From the NCBI GenBank assembly GCA_037042915.1, contig CM073193.1, positions 7,130,001 to 7,194,000 of the forward strand: DNA of 64,000 nucleotides. Reading direction: 5' to 3'. The notes beneath the pieces are model-generated. The model ran no database searches and was not told where the DNA came from. It saw nothing but the letters and a program-made list of their open reading frames with translations. This DNA is from Auricularia sp. M13. Lineage: Eukaryota > Basidiomycota > Agaricomycetes > Auriculariales > Auriculariaceae. Below, piece after piece: positions 38,280-53,495 of the stretch. Positions within the stretch are counted from its first letter, which is position 1. Each line of letters begins with the position of its first letter. The translations under genes and the position numbers were made by a program.

Positions 38280-39288
38280 TTAAGGGCAGAAGGTCAAAGT
38301 GTAGTCACTGTGGGCGCTGCAGAACTTCAGAGCGGCTGGACGAGCGGTTAGTCTTGTAATTGAAAATGATACAAATAACTTACTGGTATCGTCGTAGGCG
38401 TAGGCGTAAGCGTTGGGGCAAGCGCTATCTGCAGATATTGTTAGTTCCTCATGAAGTGGCTGCAAGTGGGAGGAGAGCTGCTTACGGAAGTAGTCGTAGT
38501 CCTGGACGCCCGAGCTCGGGCAGGTCTGCGGGGTGTTGTGGCTACCCGAGCAGCAGTTGGCCGAGTCGCCGGGGTTGCCGTCGAGGTTGGCGAAGCAGGC
38601 GCTCTTGCAGCCGACGATGGCTCCGGCAGCGTTCTTCGCCTGAAGCTCGGCAGGGCCTGTGGCAAAGTTCAGAATGGCAAATGGAAAGAGCAGCTCGAGA
38701 CGGACAGTTCGGGTTCAAGTCGACGGGGCACTCGCCCGTGGGGCAGTTGGCAGCCTCGACGCGGATGGGGAGGTTCGATCCGTCGACGAGCGAAACTGGT
38801 CGGCATGATCAGCACTCCTTCAGCACGATCCGAGGGACACATATGTGCTGACCATCGTACGAGTCCTGGTCGCCAAGCGTCCACTCCGCGAGCGACGCAG
38901 GCGGCACTCCGGTGCCCGTGGTCGGGTCGCAGAGCAAGCCGCCGTTGCAGCCGCCGGTCTCGCACTGAGTCGGTCCTGGAAGGCTGGTGCTGAAGTCGCA
39001 GCCGGTACGGACCCCAGATGCGGCCGCTAGTCCAGTTCTCTGGAACGGTAATGGTCTGGCTGCTGCCCGAGGCAGCCTCCCATCCGGTCGGGGCGTCTGG
39101 GATGGGGCCGCCGGGAGTGGTGAACAACGCCGGCCATATGGTGAACGGGCAGTTGTTCTTGCTGTTAAACGCATCAGATGGGCTTCAAGACAGCCAGAGC
39201 CTCGAAAGGCATACACGACGATGTTGCGGCCGTTGGCGAGCACGGCGAGAGCAACAACGGAAAGGCTGAGGGCGATCTGACGCGACAT
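38280..39288 (-). CDS. Thaumatin-like protein, secreted
   Basis: The first exon MSRQIALSLSVVALAVLANG is a signal peptide. An intron with donor GTATGC joins NIVV to KNNCPFTIWPALFTT, the typical mature start. Downstream blocks are TITVPENWTSGRIWG, RTGCDF, CETGGCNGGLLCD, PPASLAEWTLG, then DYDYF, CPNAYAYAYDD and the C-terminal TLTFCP. The REDDD-type acidic cleft and the many paired Cys are those of thaumatin-like proteins (about 250 residues). Fungal members bind or cut beta-1,3-glucan and act in wall remodelling, senescence or antagonism. Exons are separated by several short introns. A TATA box lies 80 bp upstream. Confidence 0.88.
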
Positions 39289-39368
39289 TGTGAAGCTGAG
39301 AACGAAGATACTTGACAAGAAGAAAGGTATTCTGGTGCAGTGAAGAAAGGTCGCAGCAACGAGCCTGC

Positions 39369-39376
39369 TTTTATAC
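39369..39376 (-). promoter_or_regulatory. TATA box of the thaumatin-like gene
   Basis: On the minus strand the sequence AAGTATAAAAGCAG lies about 80 bp upstream of the ATG at 39288, a textbook position for an inducible, highly expressed fungal gene. Confidence 0.6.
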
Positions 39377-39639
39377 TTGACCACGGCGACCCTTGTGCTG
39401 TGCTCAGGTTGGAGACAGTGCCGATGCTCCACACCCTCATCAGGCCGCGTGATGTTCGCGCCTGTTTAAGCACAAACTGTGACGCAGGAATGAATCATTG
39501 TGGATCTCCGGTTCAGGATGGAAGCGCGCCAGGCGCGTGCACGACGGAAATAAACGCGCAGTGCACTCCGAGCCGTTGCAACCTCGCCGTCACGTGCGTT
39601 GGAGGAAGTCCGCGCCAATGAAAACCACGTAGACAGCGT

Positions 39640-40834: not shown

Positions 40835-41232
40835 GACGATCAGAGCATGCTTCATAACCGCGTGAGAGCATTTAGTCAGTATTAGAAAGCCGCGAGGTCT
40901 GCTGAAGAGTACAGTAGGCAGTTGTCAGGGCTCGCTGCCGAGTGAGGAGGTGGCAGCCGACTCGTCAAAGGTTGAGGTCATTGTCACGGTAATGGTTTGG
41001 CTCTCCGCTTATATGAGTTAGATCCCGAGCGGCCATTACATTTTCATTCTTGCGAGAATTATCATAGGACGAAGAAATAAGGGGAGCAATTACACATGCC
41101 ACATATCAGGAGAGTGGCGGAAGATCAACTATCCTTTCAGTGTTAGTAGTTGGTGCGCGATGTCTTGAGTTCTTCTCCGGTAACGTCGTTGTCATCTTCG
41201 CTGCCAGGTCCGGTGTCCTCGTGCTCGTCTTA

Positions 41233-42755
41233 CTACTCGTACTCGTCTTCGTCGTCATCCTCGTCCTCGTTTTCATAGTCGTCTTCGTCTTCGTAGTCGT
41301 CGTCGTAGAAGTTATCGTCGTCGTAAGAATAGTCATCTTCGTCCGACTCCGCGTCTCGTCGATTGCACAGCTCTTCTGGACGCTCGATGCACGGTGATGC
41401 GTAGAACTCGATCCCCGAAGAAGCACAGGCGTTGCGAAGCTCGCTAGCGTCAGCGTCGAGAGGCGCAGGTCGCACAGTCAGACGTCGGAGCCCGCGCCTG
41501 TGGCCACCCGCCAAATATGCGGCAAGGCAGGGTATATATTCGTGGAGCTGCGCGGCCGATTGAAACTTGACGTCGAGCGTTTCCAGGGTGGGCGGCACTA
41601 AGCGACCAAGATCGTCCTTGACGCTGTTGGACAGCGCTAGAATCGGTACTGCGAGATGCCTGAGGTTGTTTGCGTTGCGAACGGCGGTCGAAGGGGAGAA
41701 GTCCGGTTCGCGCGATTCAACATCCCACTCGCCATATTCTATCACGGACAGGCTACGCAACGACGGTGTCGTGACAAAGGCGTCCAGATATTCGTAGCTG
41801 AATTCCTCGAATTGTTCGTAGTAGATCGCCTCCGGAGCAGACATCATGGAGAGGATATCCGCGAGCAGCTCGTCGTGGATGGGACTGTCTACCAGATGAA
41901 GGTCGGTCACTGTGGAGCATGCTGAGAGCGCGGCCATGTCGAGGGGCTCGCCTTCGCCGTACTCCCCGTCATCCGTGTAATGCTCGAGCCACAACTCCTC
42001 ATCGCCTTCGTCCCGCTAAACAGCAGCCTACGAAGATTTGGCAAAAGCAGGGCGCAGATGATTTTGATGTGGCCGAATCCTTGACCTTCATTCATATGGC
42101 TCACGAACGAAGCCTCGTCGCTGATTGCGGCATATCGGACTTCAAGCGACTGGATGGATGCGAGGCCCTTTGGCAATCGCTTGGGCGTGTCGAGGTCGTA
42201 AGGGTTGGGCAATGAGGCCCAGAACCAGTAATCGATGCGGGACGGTCGCACAGTGAGCTCTTGTAAGTTGGGAAGCATGTCCAGCAGCAGAACAGCGAAG
42301 GCGCATGTGGTTCCCTCGCGTAGAGCATAGATGAAGCCAGGATACATGTCGCGCGCTTCCGCCGCCGAGATGGGGGATGTGTTCGGCGGCTCGCCGCTGT
42401 GCCAGAACGCGCCTTCCGCCTGCATTTCGCGCTCCAGCTCGGAGAAATGGAAGGGGCCGCGCTCATAAAACTCGTAGAAGGAAGCATCGCGCTCGAGTTC
42501 CTCGAACGTAGAAGACGTCCAGTCCACGTCGAGCGCGCGAACAATATCAGCGAGGCCAGGACGCGCCAGAAGGGTTTTGATGAAGCAAACAATTTTGCGT
42601 TTGCCGGTCAGCGCAACTGAACGACTGTATAGGATGGGCTCTGCTATGTCGCGAAACCGGCGAGAGGTGCGGCATAGAGAGGCTAATGCGGGCGCATCGA
42701 GATGGGCCTCGAATATGGCCAGCAATAATTCTGACGGTAGGGACTGTTCTGCCAT
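41233..42755 (-). CDS. F-box / leucine-rich-repeat protein with acidic tail
   Basis: The start MAEQSLPSELLLAIFEAHLD with ASLCRTSRRFRDIAEPILY is an F-box, which recruits targets to an SCF ubiquitin ligase through Skp1. LRR-like lines follow (LLDMLPNLQELTVRPSRID, GLASIQSLEVRYAAISDE, LLPNLRRLLFSG, TPSLRSLSVIEYGEWD, ANNLRHLAVPIL, PTLETLDVKFQ). The C-terminal 45 residues are almost wholly Asp, Glu and Tyr. The frame breaks at about 42012 in a run of three G on the coding strand; a fourth G would give LLFSGDEGDEELWLEHY and connect both halves. The target is unknown. F-box/LRR families are large and variable in agaricomycetes. Its start lies 74 bp from the next gene, which runs the other way. Confidence 0.75.
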
Positions 42756-42829
42756 TCGCAGAACCGGCAGCAGAAAAGGTCGAACGCGATTTCAACCTCC
42801 GCCGCATCTTTTTTCACAACCTTCCCGTC

Positions 42830-44637: not shown

Positions 44638-46129
44638 TCAATGGTCCCTCTGCACGACCCTTTCGGCCAGCACTTCCAAGGCGTCTCGGGCTTCACTCGG
44701 CGGCAAGTGCTGCAAGACGTCCCGCGCCTTGTCGGCGTGTTGCCGTGCGAGCTCGCGCGTTCTTTGCAAAGCGCGCGAATTGCGCACAAACTCGCGGGCC
44801 TGAAATGTATGAGACGAGGACACGCCGTGTGTACGCGCAAGTAGCGTACCAGTTCTACATCGCCGTCTCCGGAGAACTTGCGCTCTATTAACGAGCCCAT
44901 CGCATTATTTTCTTCCCAGGCGAACAGCGCGGGCGCGGTCGCAAGCCCAAGCTTGAGGTCCGCGCCTCCTGGCTTGCCCAACGTCTTTTCGCTCGCTTCG
45001 TAATCTAATACGTCGTCGACGAGCTGTTGACGGCGTTACACATGTCGAAGGCGATTTTGGGGACGTATCGTACCTGGAACGCTAACCCGATGTTGCGGCC
45101 ATAGGCATACGCAACCTCCTTCCAGAGCTCGCCCTCTTGTGCGCCTCCAAGCACCACTGCTGCACGAGCGCCTTTGGCCATAAGGCTCGCCGTCTTCAAG
45201 TACGTTTTGTGCATGTAGGTGTTCCAGGTGTCGCGAGTCACACTAGTGTCGCCTGGGGAAGACGAGAGCACGCTCCGCATTTGCAAGACCTCGCCCTCGA
45301 CGAGGTTGGTGATGACGGAGGCAATGAGCTCGACGACCTCTGTTTCTCCCAGCCGAGAGAGCGCTGCACTGGCACGACCGAGCAAAAAGTCGCCGGCGAG
45401 CACAGAAAGCTTGCTCCCGAAATGGGCCGGAGCACTGGGCGCGCCGCGTCGCAGCGGGGAGACGTCGATGACATCGTCGTGCAGCAGAGACGCAACGTGT
45501 ATCATCTCGACGATCTGCGCGAGGCGGGCCTGGGTGGGCAGGATCTGCTCTGGCTCGCAGAGGACGCCGTGGGGCAGCAGGGCGTGCAATGGAGGCACAG
45601 CAGGCGGCGGTGGGCGCGCCGGCGTGACGAGCGAGAAGGCCGTGTCGAACGACGCGGAATGGTCGGCCATGCTTGGGTTCCAGTCGGTCAGGACATCCGG
45701 TCGGGTGAGCGGGCGATCGAGCTCCTCGGTCCTGCCGCCTGCGCCCTCGCACGACGCCGCCCAGTGTTTTTCGGGCCACCGTGCGCCGAGGCCGTTCGTC
45801 GCACGCGAAAACAGCAGCACGAGCAGCGGCCTGATCTGCTTTGACGGATGCAGGAAGTAGTAATGGGCAATCTGCGTCAGCGACGGATGCGACGAGCCCA
45901 GCAGGTCCAGGAGCGTGTTTCGTAGCCGCTCGAGCTCGGGCGCAAGGAGCTTGAATGGGTCTGCCCGTGGTCTGGGCTGCGAGCTCGTGGACGGGGCGGG
46001 AGTGGGCGCGGGACGGGCTGGAGCGCGCTCGACAGACTGTGTAGCGGTCGCCGCGGAGGTCAGCGAGCGCGCGGCTGTTGGTATTCGACGCGTGAAACAG
46101 CGCGTGTTGAGCGCAAGTCGAGAGGACAT
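44638..46129 (-). CDS. COQ1: Mitochondrial polyprenyl diphosphate synthase (COQ1, ubiquinone side chain)
   Basis: This trans-prenyltransferase elongates farnesyl or geranylgeranyl diphosphate with isopentenyl units to make the ubiquinone tail. The start MSSRLALNTRCFTRRIPTAA is Arg/Ser/Ala-rich without acids, a mitochondrial presequence. KQIRPLLVLLFSRA is the substrate-binding KxxR region. The first Asp-rich motif is LLHDDVIDVSPLRRG and the second is LVDDVLDYEASEKTLGKPGG, reached by an intron ending AACAG. Between them are VLAGDFLLGRASAAL and YLKTASLMAKGARA. The C-terminus is helical, ending VVQRDH. Both DDxxD motifs are intact and all joins keep the frame. Upstream in-frame codons to 46441 are unlikely to be coding. 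Confidence 0.92.
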
Positions 46130-46533
46130 GACGCGTGCAGCGACTCCGATGCGCGACCACGAAGACTCGGAGTCCTCTTCTTTACACGACCCGCTTTCTC
46201 GGGTGCGGCAACAAACGTTTCCGGTAAGACGCCCGTGCTGCCCGACAACGTCGGCAATAATATCCTCGTATTTTAAGGTCCTCTCAGTTTCGAAGGGTTT
46301 CTCAAAGAAGAGACAAGTCAGTGTCATGATGAACACCAGCCATTCGCGCCAATTTTCGGCTGCATTCGTCAACAATTCGTGTATACATGAGATTTTTTTG
46401 TCTGCTTTTCCGAGAAGTTTTTTCGTCCATTGACAGTCCATCAGTCAAATGTAGTTCTCCACTTGTCCCAGTGCGAAAGTCACGGCCAGACCTTGAGGTG
46501 TTTGTCGACGAGCGCGGCGACGCAGGCGTTGCC

Positions 46534-48848
46534 TCAGTCGAGGTCATCGATCTGCAAGGTTTGTCAGCAGTCAGATCTCAGGAGGCGCAGATAGTAGCTA
46601 GCTCTCTTACCGAGCGAGGACCGCGACTGCCTCGGCCACGACTGCCTCCACGGCCACGGCTGCCTCCACGGTTCTGGCTGTCGCCGTGCTTCCTCTTGCT
46701 GTTGGGGGTGCGGCCGCGACCGCGACTACCTCCGCGGCCGTTGCTGTCGCCGTGGCGGCGAGCCTCGAGCTGCTGGATCGTGAGATTCCGAGTAGCCACG
46801 GCGGGGGAAAATGGAAAACGTACATCACGACGGCTGCCAGGAGTGCGTCCACGTCCGCGGCTGCCTCCGCGGCTACCGCTGTCGCCGTGGCGGCGGGCTT
46901 CAAGCTTTTGTATCGTGAGTTTCAGTTCTGCCAGCGTGGGAAATGCGCGAAGTGCCGACGTACATCGCGCCTGCTGCCGGGGGTGCGGCCGCGGCCGCGA
47001 CTGCCATTCGAATTGCCGTGGCGGCGAGCCTCGAGCTATGAGGATGATGAGACTGCATTGAGCAAAGCGGATAAAGAGACGCACATCACGCTTCGAACCC
47101 GGAGTGCGTCCACGACCGCGACTTCCGTTCGAGTTGCCGTGGCGGCGAGCCTCCAGGTCACGCTTGCTTCCAGGAGTGCGGCCACGTCCGCGGCTGCCGT
47201 TAGAATCTCCATGGCGGCGCGCCTCGAGATCGCGCTTGCTGCCTGGGGTGCGACCGCGACCGCGACTCCCGTTGGAGTTGCCGTGGCGGCGGGCCTCGAG
47301 GTCGCGCTTGCTTCCAGGAGTGCGGCCGCGACCGCGGCTGCCATTCGAATCTCCATGGCGCCGAGCCTCGAGATCGCGCTTGCTGCCTGGGGTGCGGCCG
47401 CGACCGCGGCTACTGTTGGAGTTGCCGTTGGCGGGTTGTCGCGCTTGTGGCGCGTCCGGGCCGTTAGAATCTCCGTGGCGGCGCGATGATATAAAAACTC
47501 AGCATGCACTCGACGGTGCGAGAGAGATGCTTACGTCGCGCTTGCTACCTGGGGTGCGGCCCCGACCGCGACTCCCGTTGGAGTTGCCGTGGCGGCGAGC
47601 CTCAAGGTCACGCTTGCTTCCAGGAGTGCGGCCGCGTCCGCGGCTGCCGTTCGAATCTCCATGGCGCCGAGCCTCGAGATCGCGCTTGCTACCTGGGGTG
47701 CGACCGCGACCGCGGCTGCCATTCGAATTTCCGTGGCGACGCGCCTCGAGCTAGCAAAATAGTCAGACATGCACTGCAGAACATGAAATCAATAGCTAAT
47801 TATTCACCTCGCGCTTGCTGCCTGGGGTGCGGCCGCGACCACGACTTCCGTTAGAATCGCCGTGGCGGCGGCCTCGAGATCACGCTTGCTTCCAGGAGTG
47901 CGGCCGCGACCGCGACTGCCGTTAGAATCTCCGTGGCGGCGCGCCTCAAGCTGATATAGAAAAACTCAGCATGCACTCGACGGTGCGAGAGAGATTCTTA
48001 CGTCGCGCTTGCTACCTGGGGTGCGGCCCCGACCGCGACTTCCGTTTGAGTCGCCGTGGCGGCGAGCTTCAAGGTCACGCTTGCTTCCAGGAGTGCGACC
48101 GCGTCCGCGACTGCCGTTAGAATCTCCGTGGCGGCGCGCTTCTAGGTCACGCTTGGATCCTGGGGTGCGACCGCGGCCGCGGCTGCCATTGCTATCCCCG
48201 TGCCGGCGAGCCTCAAGCTATCGGTCTTTCAACGTCATCCTCACTATTGACAGAGAACATTACTCACGTCCCGCTTAGAGCCAGGGGTGCGGCCACGCCC
48301 GCGACTGCCGTTGGAGTCACCGTGACGGCGTGCCTCAAGCTGGTCCATGATCAGCGCCTACATATCCCCATGGTCAATGTCACGGTTCCTCACCTCCCGC
48401 TTGCTTCCTGGAGTACGGCCACGGCTTCCACCGCGCCCCCTGCTGCCTCCACGGCCACGACTATCGCCGTGGCGGCGGGCCTCAATCTAAATGATGCAAA
48501 GTCCAAGTGCTTAGTTGAAGGCGAGCAACACTGGCAAAGAAGGAAACTCACAAGTTCCCTGGGCGTGGGGTTCCTGCCACGAGCCTGAGAGGGCGATTAA
48601 TCTGCGACTTTTGCGAAGCCGCAACTCTACGCACGACTGTCTCAACGACGTGCACCTGGATTGTATGAGAGAATGCAGACGTTGAAGCGCCAAACAAAAC
48701 ACTCACCTCGTTCACGCTGCGGCGTGCGTCGATCTAAGAAGCAAATGTCAGCAAGTCTTCGAGCTGCAAGAAGAATACATACAGCCAGCCCGTGGGTGCC
48801 AGCAACGAGGCCGATCAAGAGGATAGCGAAATTCTTGGAAAGCTGCAT
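46534..48848 (-). CDS. Secreted tandem-repeat protein with dibasic (KEX2-type) sites, candidate processed-peptide precursor
   Basis: Exon 1 encodes the signal peptide MQLSKNFAILLIGLVAGTHG followed by LA. A 49-bp intron joins it to IDARRSVNE, then short exons (ARGRNPTPREL). About 19 units of roughly 24 residues follow: LEARRHG(D/N)SNGSRGRG, then RTPGSKRD. Each unit is bounded by RR and KR, so kexin would free a 16-residue peptide from H to S and discard the spacer DLEA. The last exon ends RS-IDDLD. Every intron I could read is phase 0, which suits exon duplication. Two defects: the unit at 47870 lacks one base (GCCCGC reduced to GCCGC), and the splice acceptor at about 47477 is lost. I recognise no homologue by name; it belongs architecturally with kexin-processed repeat proteins. 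A nucleic-acid-binding RG-rich protein is excluded if the signal peptide is real. Confidence 0.75.
46620..48490 (-). repeat. Coding tandem repeat, 72-bp unit, about 19 copies interrupted by introns
   Basis: Contiguous perfect-length 72-bp units are seen at 47090-47376 (four), 47537-47752 (three), 47815-47950 (two) and 48016-48225 (three). Single or longer units sit near 46640-46720, 46725-46785, 46820-46900, 46960-47030, 47377-47477, 48270-48345 and 48395-48480. Units with HGNS and HGDS alternate in parts, together with alternating synonymous codons (CCAGGCAGC against CCTGGAAGC), implying a 144-bp higher-order unit. Outer copies are longer or more divergent (SRGRGGSRGRGG). Confidence 0.9.
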
Positions 48849-48920: not shown

Positions 48921-48929
48921 CTTTTATAC
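48921..48929 (-). promoter_or_regulatory. TATA box of the secreted repeat-protein gene
   Basis: On the minus strand GGGGTATAAAAGACTGC lies about 75-80 bp upstream of the ATG at 48848. It is a strong consensus TATA box, as often found before strongly induced secreted-protein genes. Confidence 0.65.
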
Positions 48930-49689: not shown

Positions 49690-50536
49690 CTATTCCGCAG
49701 AAGACCCGCTGGGCCGTTCGACTCTGCCGAGTTGCACAATGTGCCACGAGTTCGTGAGCAAGACAAGTTCGCCATCGCGGATATCATCACGAAGGATCGT
49801 TCCTTCTACGATGCGCCCCTGCTCAAGCAGCCAACGACGGACCGTGCCAGGCAGTCCTCCAGAGGACAGGCTAGGTGTAACCCATCGCCCACCGCGCCAG
49901 AATGAAACGTTTGTAACGCTTCCTTCTGTGACCTCGCCGTTCTCGTTGAACAAGATGACCTCGCGCAGTTCACCGCGAGTTTTTATGCCGGCTCGCTCGC
50001 GCGCGGCATTGTAATGCACTCGACGCGTCGTTTTGTTTCGAGTAAAGGCGCTGGAGGGTGTAGGAACAGTGTCTACCATGACTCTATAGAGCGAGCCCGC
50101 GTTCGTTATAGGATCGGTAGAGGGATTGAAAGTCGACAAGGCTAGAAGATCATCATGCGGCCATTGGATAGGATCGAATGATTGAGCAGCAAGTTTCCCG
50201 TCCTTGCTGAGCGTAACACGAAGCTGTCGGTTGGTCAGTCGAGCGCGAGCACCATCAAGCGACAGGACATACCAGGACAGGGCCGTCGTGAGCGCCTCCA
50301 TTGTGCGTTTTCACTGCGCGCAGACACACATCCCGGAAGCGGTTTGCGCCTTCCGGACCAGAAATGGCCGTCAAGGCGTCCGGCCACGAGAAAGCAGCCG
50401 CTGCGTCGCGGAGGCGGTCTACATGGAAGCTTTCAAGGCTCCAAGCAGAGCCTGCTGTCCAGAACGCATCGGAAAGGGAAGGGTCGTATCGCAAGGAGGT
50501 AAAGAGGTCGTAGGAGCCGTTGCTCGTCGACGACAT
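49690..50536 (-). CDS. Aminotransferase class IV, 4-amino-4-deoxychorismate lyase-like (ABZ2)
   Basis: This PLP enzyme, if ABZ2, releases p-aminobenzoate for folate synthesis. Exon 1 gives MSSTSNGSYDLFTSLRYDP, then SLESFHVDRLRDAAAAFSWP. An intron (GTATGT to CGACAG) joins GPVL to LRVTLSKDGKLAAQSFDPIQW. The PLP-lysine region is TRNKTTRRVHYNAARERAG, and the phosphate/cofactor region is ILFNENGEVTEGSVTNVSFWRGGRW with the class IV Glu and Asn. The end TLLxN-like block is ELVLLTNSWHIVQLGRV. Length about 266 residues, two exons. A branched-chain or D-amino-acid transaminase is a weaker alternative, given the short fungal ABZ2-like form. Confidence 0.82.
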
Positions 50537-51335: not shown

Positions 51336-51504
51336 ATGGACGATACGGTATCCCACGCTCACAAACAAAAGCAGAGCAACAGTTTGACGGCCCTGCTAAC
51401 TCGGATGATTACTTGCAATGGGTTTGATCCCGGCAATCCACCGGCAACTTGTCACGCAGGAACTAAACATCGCCGTGTGCAGACAGGTCCAGCAGGCGCT
51501 GACC

Positions 51505-51538
<34 letters not shown>

Positions 51539-51767
51539 AGATGACGACTTTATCGCCGATAAGCCGGTAAAGAAATCCCAGTTGCCGCCGTCCAAGACTG
51601 CCGCTGCTGCTAAACGGACGCGGGAAGAGGACGACGGAGATGACGACTTTATCGCCGATAAACCGGTAAAGAAATCCCAGTTGCCGCCGTCCAAGACTGC
51701 CGCTGCTGCTAAACGGACGCGGGAAGAGGACGACCCAGAGCCGGCGCGGAAGAAAGTCAAGGAATAA
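51336..51767 (+). CDS. Short acidic/basic protein or gene fragment with internal duplication
   Basis: The useful part is an Asp run (about 51508-51540, GAC repeats) followed by GDDDFIADKPVKKSQLPPSK and TAAAAKRTREED, which occurs twice in tandem. It ends PEPARKKVKE. This resembles the acidic plus Lys-rich nuclear-localisation tail found at the C-terminus of large nuclear proteins, but the upstream frame is not protein-like, so it may be a duplicated tail without its body. An acceptor at about 51497 (CAGCAG) could attach it to an unseen exon. No named family. Confidence 0.4.
51531..51734 (+). repeat. 99-bp tandem duplication
   Basis: Two copies of 99 bp, 51531-51629 and 51630-51728, plus six more matching bases, appear to differ by a single third-position base (AAG versus AAA in the codon before CCG). 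The near-identity marks a recent duplication. It keeps the reading frame (33 codons). Confidence 0.9.
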
Positions 51768-51965
51768 TGACCTTACGAAGGTTAGCACACACCATACTTC
51801 AGTTGTGCAACGGATTGACATTACTTGGTAGTGGAGGTGTACATCATCCTGTATCTCGCTCTGTTCTGCTTTCTGTCGCTTTATTATTACCTGGCGCGCT
51901 CTGCGGCTTGCGCATCCGGCGCCGGTAAGAGCCGTCCAGGCGCCTCTCAGCGGGCCGTTGCCAAC

Positions 51966-53495
51966 ATGCTTGCTGTAGTCGGCACTGTTGTTCATACGCC
52001 TGCGCTCAAAGACATCGAAATCCTGCACGATCGTCTCATCTGCGTCGACGATGAAGGCTTCATAACTGCCATTCACCATCGCGATGACGCCGCCGCACAA
52101 TCCTATCTCGAAACCTGTCCTGGCTCTGTCACGACGTTACCTCCTGGCAGTTTCCTTATCCCGACGTTCGCAGACCTACATCTACACGCGCCGCAGTTTA
52201 TGTACCTGGGCACCGGTCTTCATCTACCTCTCATGCAATGGTTGGATGAATATGCTTATCGTGCCGAAGAAACGCTTGATTCGGATCCATCGCTGGCACG
52301 TTCGGTGTACTCCAGGCTGGCTGAAAGACTCGTCAGTCTTGGGACCGGTGTAGCGCTGCTATTCGGAACGATCAGACCAGAGACTAAGTGCGTCTGATGC
52401 GCCCTGTTCTACGACATTGGGGGTATTGAACTCGATACAAAGTCTCATCCTAGCGGAGGAATTCCAGGCGGCAGGCCTCAGAGCCGTGGTAGGCAAGCTC
52501 TCAATGGATATTTCCAGCCGGCCAACCTATGTCGAACCGTCCGCTCAGGAAGCGAGCGAGGCCGCCAGGTCTTTCATCATGGATTGCAAAGCTTTGGTGG
52601 CCCATCTTGCACCGCATGAGCGACTGGTAGCGCCTGCTATCACGCCTCGCTTTGTACCAACGTGCTCGGACGCCCTCTTGCAGCAACTCGGCTCTCTTGC
52701 GCGAGAGACAGGCGTCGTGGTACAAAGCCATCTCGCTGAGGCGCACGATCAAGTCAAATGGGTCCAAGCTACCCGAGGGAAAGACGACATGGATGTATTC
52801 GACGAGGTATGCTCTGGTAACACCGGCTACGTCAAATTTTTCCCAGCTGACATGAATGAGTGTAGCATAGACTGCTGACGGACCGTACGGTGCAGGCCCA
52901 CTGTACATTCCTCACGCCCGCCGAGTTGCAACGGTTCTCCGCAGCGGGTAGCAAGATCTCCCATTGCCCGCTGTCAAACGCATACTTCAGTGCAGAGCAG
53001 CTACCCCTTCGCGAAGCCCTGGACCTCAATATCGACGTCGGGCTCGGTAGCGACTGTGCTGGCGGTTACTCTCTTGACATCATGAACGCGATGCGCATGG
53101 CCGTCTCCACATCACGAATCCGCGAGGGAAAGCGCGTACTGATGTCCAGCAACGAGACCAACGGGCGTGGAGCCCCCGTCTCAATTGATTGGAAGGAGGC
53201 GCTCTATCTTGCGACCCGTGGCGGAGCGAAAGCCCTCGGTTTGTCGACCGGCAGCTTCACAGTCGGAGCACCTTTCGACGCGCAAGCCAGTGGGTGAGCT
53301 CCAGTGAATGCAATTGGTGTACTCATCCAAGCTCCAGTCCACGTACACGACGAGAACGGCCGCGGAGTGGGACCTTTAGACTTCTTTGTCCCCCCTCCCG
53401 AAAAAATGGAAGAAGAAACGGTGGAGAAGTGGTGGTGCTTGGGGAACGACCTCAATCGCATCGGGGTATGGGTACAAGGCAGGCGACTGCTTTGA
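51966..53495 (+). CDS. Guanine deaminase
   Basis: This zinc amidohydrolase converts guanine to xanthine. Start MLAVVGTVVHTPALKDIEIL. Metal motif: FLIPTFADLHLHAPQFMYLGTG (HxH). Then LPLMQWLDEYAYRAEETL, VVQSHLAEAHDQVKWV (His ligand), QAHCTFLTPAELQRF with SHCPLSNAYFS, and the Asp ligand in VDVGLGSDCAGGYSLDIMNAMR (written here with the preceding ID). C-terminus: EKWWCLGNDLNRIGVWVQGRRLL. The frame meets TGA at 53295, but a 48-bp GT-AG intron there joins FDAQA to IHVHDENGRGVG, so no stop is needed. In-frame codons upstream of 51966 look non-coding. It has at least four exons and an intact active site. Confidence 0.9.

Follow-up and report, generated by a model that had tools for sequence, protein, structure and literature searches.

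Closest described systems

KEX2-processed repeat proteins (KEPs; Umemura 2020; Le Marquer 2019; Vogt 2022) are common, with functions that are mostly unknown, and combine a signal-peptide-like start with many near-identical units flanked by KR or RR. They have been defined by a signal peptide and at least three tandem repeats, each of at least 8 and at most 100 residues, located between KR, KK, RK or RR, with the repeated motif making up at least 15% of the protein; membrane proteins as predicted by TMHMM are excluded, and the organism must have a kexin (PMC7329392, PMC6339444). According to PMC9769878, agaricomycete KEP peptides were detected by mass spectrometry as linear, minimally modified molecules, examples being SGVAADW, QYKAPSW and QIPAELPTKSINGNIEPY with their Trp, Tyr or other hydrophobic residues, and knockouts of six KEPs in C. 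cinerea led to no phenotype. Rep1 from Ustilago maydis is a basidiomycete secreted repeat precursor that is cut at kexin sites, and its peptides are 37 residues long and form amyloid-like fibrils (PMC6339444, PMC9769878). Hydrophobic, surface-active repeat peptides characterize repellents of the Rep1 type. From Ywp1 of Candida albicans, Kex2 releases a single N-glycosylated 11-kDa propeptide (PMC6258133).

UstA and the other dikaritin precursors are repeat precursors with kexin sites as well, and a UstYa/DUF3328 gene located nearby is one of the marks by which they are recognized. Another mark of the dikaritins and ustiloxins is an aromatic residue in the core, which is used for cyclisation. 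In ascomycete alpha-pheromone precursors and alpha-like basidiomycete KEPs, KR is followed by a short acidic spacer consisting of a run of XA/XP dipeptides; the spacer of the yeast alpha-pheromone precursor contains EA repeats.

The 64-kb window, i.e. the whole stretch of DNA analysed here, contains a candidate precursor gene of this general layout on the minus strand (48848-46534). A kexin-processed repeat precursor with about 19 units had been proposed at this place by the original prediction, and the array, its strand and its end coordinates proved right on re-checking, with 19 units being read exon by exon; the proposed nature of the precursor is supported by its layout, by the presence of candidate enzymes and by purifying selection on the unit. 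Three features go beyond that prediction, namely the sequon NGS, the way in which units are distributed over exons, and a break in the middle of the array. We consider it probable that the gene encodes a KEP yielding a linear, hydrophilic, cationic secreted peptide, which would act extracellularly as a signal or as a surface- or polyanion-binding ligand.

The literal spliced model of 514 aa holds 14 cores in frame, 13 of which are bounded by dibasics on both sides, and 14 cores of at least 16 residues account for about 44% of the protein or more; the organism also possesses kexin, as judged by domain match. In number, length and share of its repeats, and in the presence of a kexin in the organism, the predicted protein thus agrees with the KEP definition. 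Like the KEPs compared, it has no Pfam domain (Pfam scan of the literal model), no paralogue found and no UstYa match on its contig; the protein search of its own genome with the first 200 residues of the precursor returned nine matches at E up to 10, all of them within the precursor gene. Unlike these KEPs, it has an acidic spacer that is constant and a pair of dibasics in each unit, units grouped into exons in phase 0 (in the repeat frame), NGS in 14 of the 19 cores, and an RG-rich core instead of the hydrophobic residues mentioned above. The original prediction had named Rep1 and UstA as precedents, which is justified as far as the layout is concerned (the kexin sites here being predicted), whereas the core has neither Rep1-like hydrophobic residues nor UstA-like aromatic ones. 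Judging by composition only, the core is extremely hydrophilic and does not correspond to the hydrophobic, surface-active repeats of the Rep1 type.

Six peptide strings from the precursor were not found in 5.39 million open-licence papers, and among titles and the openings of abstracts nothing nearer than the KEP papers was found for RG-rich or glycosylated kexin-cut repeat peptides. The precursor may already be numbered in a published KEP list.

Exon model and repeat units

The model consists of 14 inferred exons separated by 13 inferred introns, all of which are GT-AG, twelve having a length of 49-65 nt and one of 122 nt; all the coordinates given below refer to the minus strand. A TATAAAA box (48922..48928), one of five on this strand of the window, is located 80 nt upstream of the ATG. 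Exon 1 (48783..48848) contains the start codon and the signal-peptide-like sequence MQLSKNFAILLIGLVAGTHGLA, recognized by a scan for hydropathy, charge and donor site. This ATG, identified by its values, was the sole one to pass the heuristic scan (nine residues with a hydropathy of at least 3.0, n-region charge and a nearby splice donor) among the 1144 ATGs, counted over the two strands, that open a frame of 22 further codons. Exon 2 (48707..48733) encodes IDARR/SVNE with the first dibasic after the putative signal peptide, and splice inference adds exon 3 (48635..48655, VHVVETV; GT-AG, phase 0) and exon 4 (48552..48584, ARGRNPTPREL). Taken together, exons 2-4 resemble a degenerate unit when compared by eye.

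In exons 5-13, read in the repeat frame, the introns coincide with the borders of units (KRD or KRE before LEARR). The exons therefore hold whole units, their numbers being 1, 1, 3, 2, 3, 4 (with a remnant in addition), 1, 1 and 2. Exon 5 (48394..48486) carries unit 1, a variant with a long RG core and no sequon, exon 6 (48268..48339) the intact unit 2, and exon 7 (48002..48217) the intact units 3-5. The intron at 47951..48001 (GTAAGA...CAG) leads to exon 8 with the intact unit 6 (47879..47950) and the frame-shifting unit 7 (47808..47878), followed by exon 9 (47535..47750) with units 8-10, which are intact in the repeat frame and read in a shifted frame in the literal DNA. Next come an intron with a lost acceptor (47413..47534, 122 nt in the literal model) and the fused, degenerate unit 11 (47373..47486), exonic in the literal model only at 47412-47373, the remainder of exon 10 (47085..47372) comprising the intact units 12-15. 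The array is completed by exon 11 (46964..47035; unit 16, intact and ending in RR, not KR), exon 12 (46824..46904; unit 17, a variant with an RR end) and exon 13 (46611..46769; units 18 and 19, both variants, the last without a closing dibasic), and exon 14 (46534..46551) adds IDDLD and the stop codon.

The usual unit reads LEARR/HG(D/N)SNGSRGRGRTPGSKR/D. Exon by exon and in the repeat frame, 13 of the 19 units are intact and 72 nt long, one has 71 nt, and five are variants (48486-48394, the fused 47486-47373, 46904-46824 and two in 46769-46611). The variants differ chiefly in the number of RG/RGGS steps and retain the site before HGDS, the fused unit also containing foreign residues. A basic site lies immediately before HG(D/N)S in all 19 units (RR in 18, KRK in the last). 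The sequon NGS is found in 14 of the 19 units and NSS in one, ten sequons being left in the literal spliced model.

The dibasics of the repeat-frame units occupy two fixed places only, with a mostly alternating 6/18 spacing. An enrichment of dibasics by number was considered and rejected, as the 29 observed in the literal model lie within the range of its shuffled composition (mean 25.7, maximum 38; 2000 shuffles). The weight is carried by the spacing together with codon-level conservation, not by the count.

Selection between units

The units of a single precursor serve as their own evolutionary test. Comparison of the 13 intact units, with the six non-intact ones left out, gave pS 0.590 and pN 0.035, i.e. 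a ratio of 0.059 (Nei-Gojobori, 78 pairs, which are not independent as the units share descent), with a bootstrap range over 24 codons of 0.006-0.130. The amino-acid sequence of the unit is under strong purifying selection in the repeat frame, and this between-unit evidence for the exact amino-acid sequence is what is new here. The varying columns number 27 of 72, 21 of them being third codon positions, and as many third-position columns were obtained in none of 20000 random draws; likewise, 41 of the minimum of 47 changes fall on third positions. The other two sense frames gave pN/pS values of 5.6 and 7.5.

Serine is encoded throughout at position 9 (TCN in 12 units, AGC in one) and at position 21 (AGC in ten, TCN in three), while position 8 is D in eight units and N in five; at position 22 (P2), K is found in 12 units and R in one, the lone K-to-R change keeping the site dibasic. 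Pairwise identity among the intact units ranges from 52 to 69 of 72, which points to a mixture of old and recent copies. Protein-level selection is the natural reading of these data, because homogenisation of the copies would flatten synonymous sites too. The fact that synonymous sites are heavily diverged and the peptide is not indicates that it is important for the fungus to have precisely this sequence, and the peptide, being kept almost unaltered by selection, is probably functional; the gene is probably a real and functional KEP with an unusual RG core.

The spacer and dibasic codons gave a ratio of 0.015 as compared to 0.079 for the core. Being at least as constrained as the core, they show that the whole unit matters and that the 16-mer is not singled out by this test; a conserved spacer would be just as compatible with a product of larger size (22-mer) or with a function of the uncut protein.

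The possibility that open frames crossing the array on the plus strand are rival genes was rejected, as antisense pN/pS values amount to 0.136, 3.9 and 16.7, the sense frame having 0.059; such frames are also disfavoured by the splice sites inferred on the minus strand, the strand to which splice inference was applied. Unit codons 13 and 17 (48339-46964), which specify two core Arg residues, are CGC in all 13 intact units, unlike most other codons of these units, which vary at the third position.

Damaged middle of the array

The unit at 47878-47808 lacks one nucleotide compared with the 72-nt units, and the intron starting at 47534 is nearly identical to the 48001-47951 intron except for the loss of the acceptor; the fused unit comes directly behind it. 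In the literal frame, the reading is shifted at the short unit, proceeds through exon 9 in an Ala-rich frame (about 93 residues) and is restored by the acceptor ending at 47413, the first of those tested to do so. Of 12 candidate acceptors tried for the 47534 intron, five keep the downstream repeat frame in the literal reading and seven do not. The approximately 19 units of the original prediction do not all share one frame in the literal DNA, since the short unit and the lost acceptor leave 14 of the 19 cores in frame. The same frame shift takes two introns of the literal model, at 47807 and at 47534, out of unit-border phase.

The three units of exon 9 are conserved in the repeat frame (pS 0.653, pN 0.013), which suggests that the shift is either very recent or an assembly error. 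In case the shortfall is an error, the 47534 intron would need another acceptor, for which the AG at 47380, the first that frame counts place in phase, is a candidate, or else exons would have to be skipped. The sequence was used as given, with the frame shift left unmended.

Predicted processing and product

The putative signal peptide would direct the precursor into the ER, and in the late Golgi kexin is expected, by analogy with the family, to cut after ...LEARR and ...GSKR, whereupon a KEX1-type carboxypeptidase would remove the basic ends. Each standard unit would then give the 16-mer HG(D/N)SNGSRGRGRTPGS and a small acidic spacer, DLEA, the tandem units yielding more peptide per transcript. 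Candidate genes for these steps are present in the genome (52.1 Mb, 14 contigs), which was read with profiles exon by exon, so the counts are lower bounds. Contig 4 has at least two kexin-type loci (S8 + P_proprotein, domain match only), one near 2.29 Mb and one near 2.33 Mb; S10 carboxypeptidases match at 52 places, fragments of single genes included; and three adjacent pieces matching DPPIV_N on contig 8 were counted as one DPP4/STE13-type gene. The two kexin-type loci are about 36 kb apart and may represent a local duplication.

At the predicted sites, P1′ after KR is Asp (Glu in two units), and yeast kexins prefer a P1′ with negative charge (PMC2515848). With the yeast matrix given in that paper, the Gly or acidic residue at P4 of four site types (GSKR, GSRR, EARR and DARR; NSKR of unit 18 lies outside the scored set) receives 0.05 of 1, so partial cleavage and a 22-mer product (DLEARR...PGS, 2337.14 Da) are possible. 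The predicted spacer shares with the alpha-type precursors its acidic character and its location after KR, while differing in being DLEA with a second dibasic before the core: DL-EA follows KR and HG follows RR, with no XA/XP directly after a kexin site as STE13-type trimming has it. The basidiomycete pheromone family PF08015 had no match in the genome, and equally none in 14 controls, so that this negative carries no weight.

The predicted 16-mer has a monoisotopic mass of about 1596.7 or 1595.8 Da when unmodified, a GRAVY of -1.9 and a charge of +1.9 or +2.9 at pH 7, i.e. it is weakly cationic. The short repeat is probably disordered. Peptides that are usually pursued are aromatic or cyclic, which this one is not, and the exact masses are given for its detection. 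Its hydrophilic standard core, as read from the sequence, has no aromatic, aliphatic or cysteine residues, which makes membrane lysis, an amyloid or repellent role and aromatic cyclisation unlikely. A better fit would be a peptide recognized by a receptor, or one that binds nucleic acids or the acidic polymers of the wall. The likeliest product is a linear hydrophilic 16-mer, possibly N-glycosylated, and most likely neither a cyclised toxin-type peptide nor a hydrophobic repellent.

That the released 16-mer is indeed a glycopeptide, its NGS being N-glycosylated in the ER before cutting, seems unlikely to us. If it were, one precursor would give rise to many cationic RG glycopeptides with a free N-terminal His-Gly-(Asp/Asn), which might serve as an extracellular hormone-like signal or a wall-polymer ligand. 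Term searches within PMC7329392, PMC6339444 and PMC9769878 gave no glycosylated KEP core. Ywp1 (PMC6258133) also has a short segment between two basic sites and provides a precedent for a glycosylated kexin product, not for a repeat peptide; repeats are absent from it, and conservation is poor in its short segment but strong in the DLEA of the present units.

Alternative interpretations

One alternative is a secreted Arg/Gly/Ser-rich wall or matrix protein, disordered and mostly uncut, in which the dibasics are incidental to the basic composition. The weak P4 residues, a number of dibasics in line with that of shuffled sequences and a spacer at least as conserved as the core are consistent with such a protein, but the restriction of dibasics to two fixed places in the repeat-frame units, the basic site preserved before every HG(D/N)S despite the varying core length, and a C-terminus (IDDLD, as read) without an anchor-like hydrophobic tail argue for cutting, and we regard the uncut protein as improbable. 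Even less can be said for an RNA-binding protein of the RGG type, located in the cytosol or the nucleus, whose signal peptide would be spurious: it would explain the RG-rich composition, yet it leaves aside the signal-peptide-like start and the TATA box upstream of it, the literal model has no Pfam domain, and RGG boxes are not known to include dibasic spacers or HG(D/N)S, so that this reading is very improbable. Still more remote is a RiPP precursor like those of ustiloxins and other dikaritins, in which oxidases of the UstYa type would carry out cyclisation. The layout is that of UstA and UstYa matches occur at no fewer than 16 places in the genome (12 on contig 8 and two each on contigs 2 and 4, as lower bounds), but none of the 16 is on the window's contig (exon-by-exon search, E up to 0.001), nor did Pfam find UstYa in any of 20 sequences scanned, comprising the literal precursor together with 19 open frames out of the 104 of at least 150 aa in the window, and the standard core offers no Tyr, Trp, Phe, Cys or aliphatic residue. 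The 12 places on contig 8 fall inside about 0.9 Mb (1.64-2.53 Mb), a grouping that possibly reflects modified-peptide clusters.

The most serious of the alternatives, which we nevertheless find rather less than likely, is that the gene is decaying, with the one-nucleotide shortfall and the lost acceptor both being real, so that the locus is either a pseudogene in the making or now encodes 14 peptides with an Ala-rich insert. Two lesions in the middle of the array are in agreement with this, as is a literal sequence which stays open over 514 aa only by way of a frame swap, but the low pN of the exon 9 units in the repeat frame means that any lesion must be recent, and the loss of one base in a GC-rich tandem repeat is a common assembly error. 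A functional KEP with linear, secreted RG-rich peptides is the reading that we prefer.

Genomic neighbourhood

The nearest identified neighbours, a polyprenyl synthetase (45008-46444) and a class IV aminotransferase (49693-50310), are both encoded on the minus strand and suggest no peptide-modifying cluster. Further along, a nearly perfect 99-bp tandem repeat (51531-51734; 2.1 copies, 99% match) is located beside a CGA run inside the minus-strand open frame 51399-52136, which has no Pfam match. On the other side, a TCGTCG-type low-complexity run (41218-41324) lies mostly within the minus-strand frame 41236-42015, also without a Pfam match, which is overlapped by an open frame with an F-box-like domain (41910-42791), and a thaumatin-family fragment is found on the minus strand at 38812-39465. 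In the genome as a whole, DUF6533 matches at 49 places, in agreement with the fungal group guessed in the original prediction, as this family is typical of Agaricomycetes.
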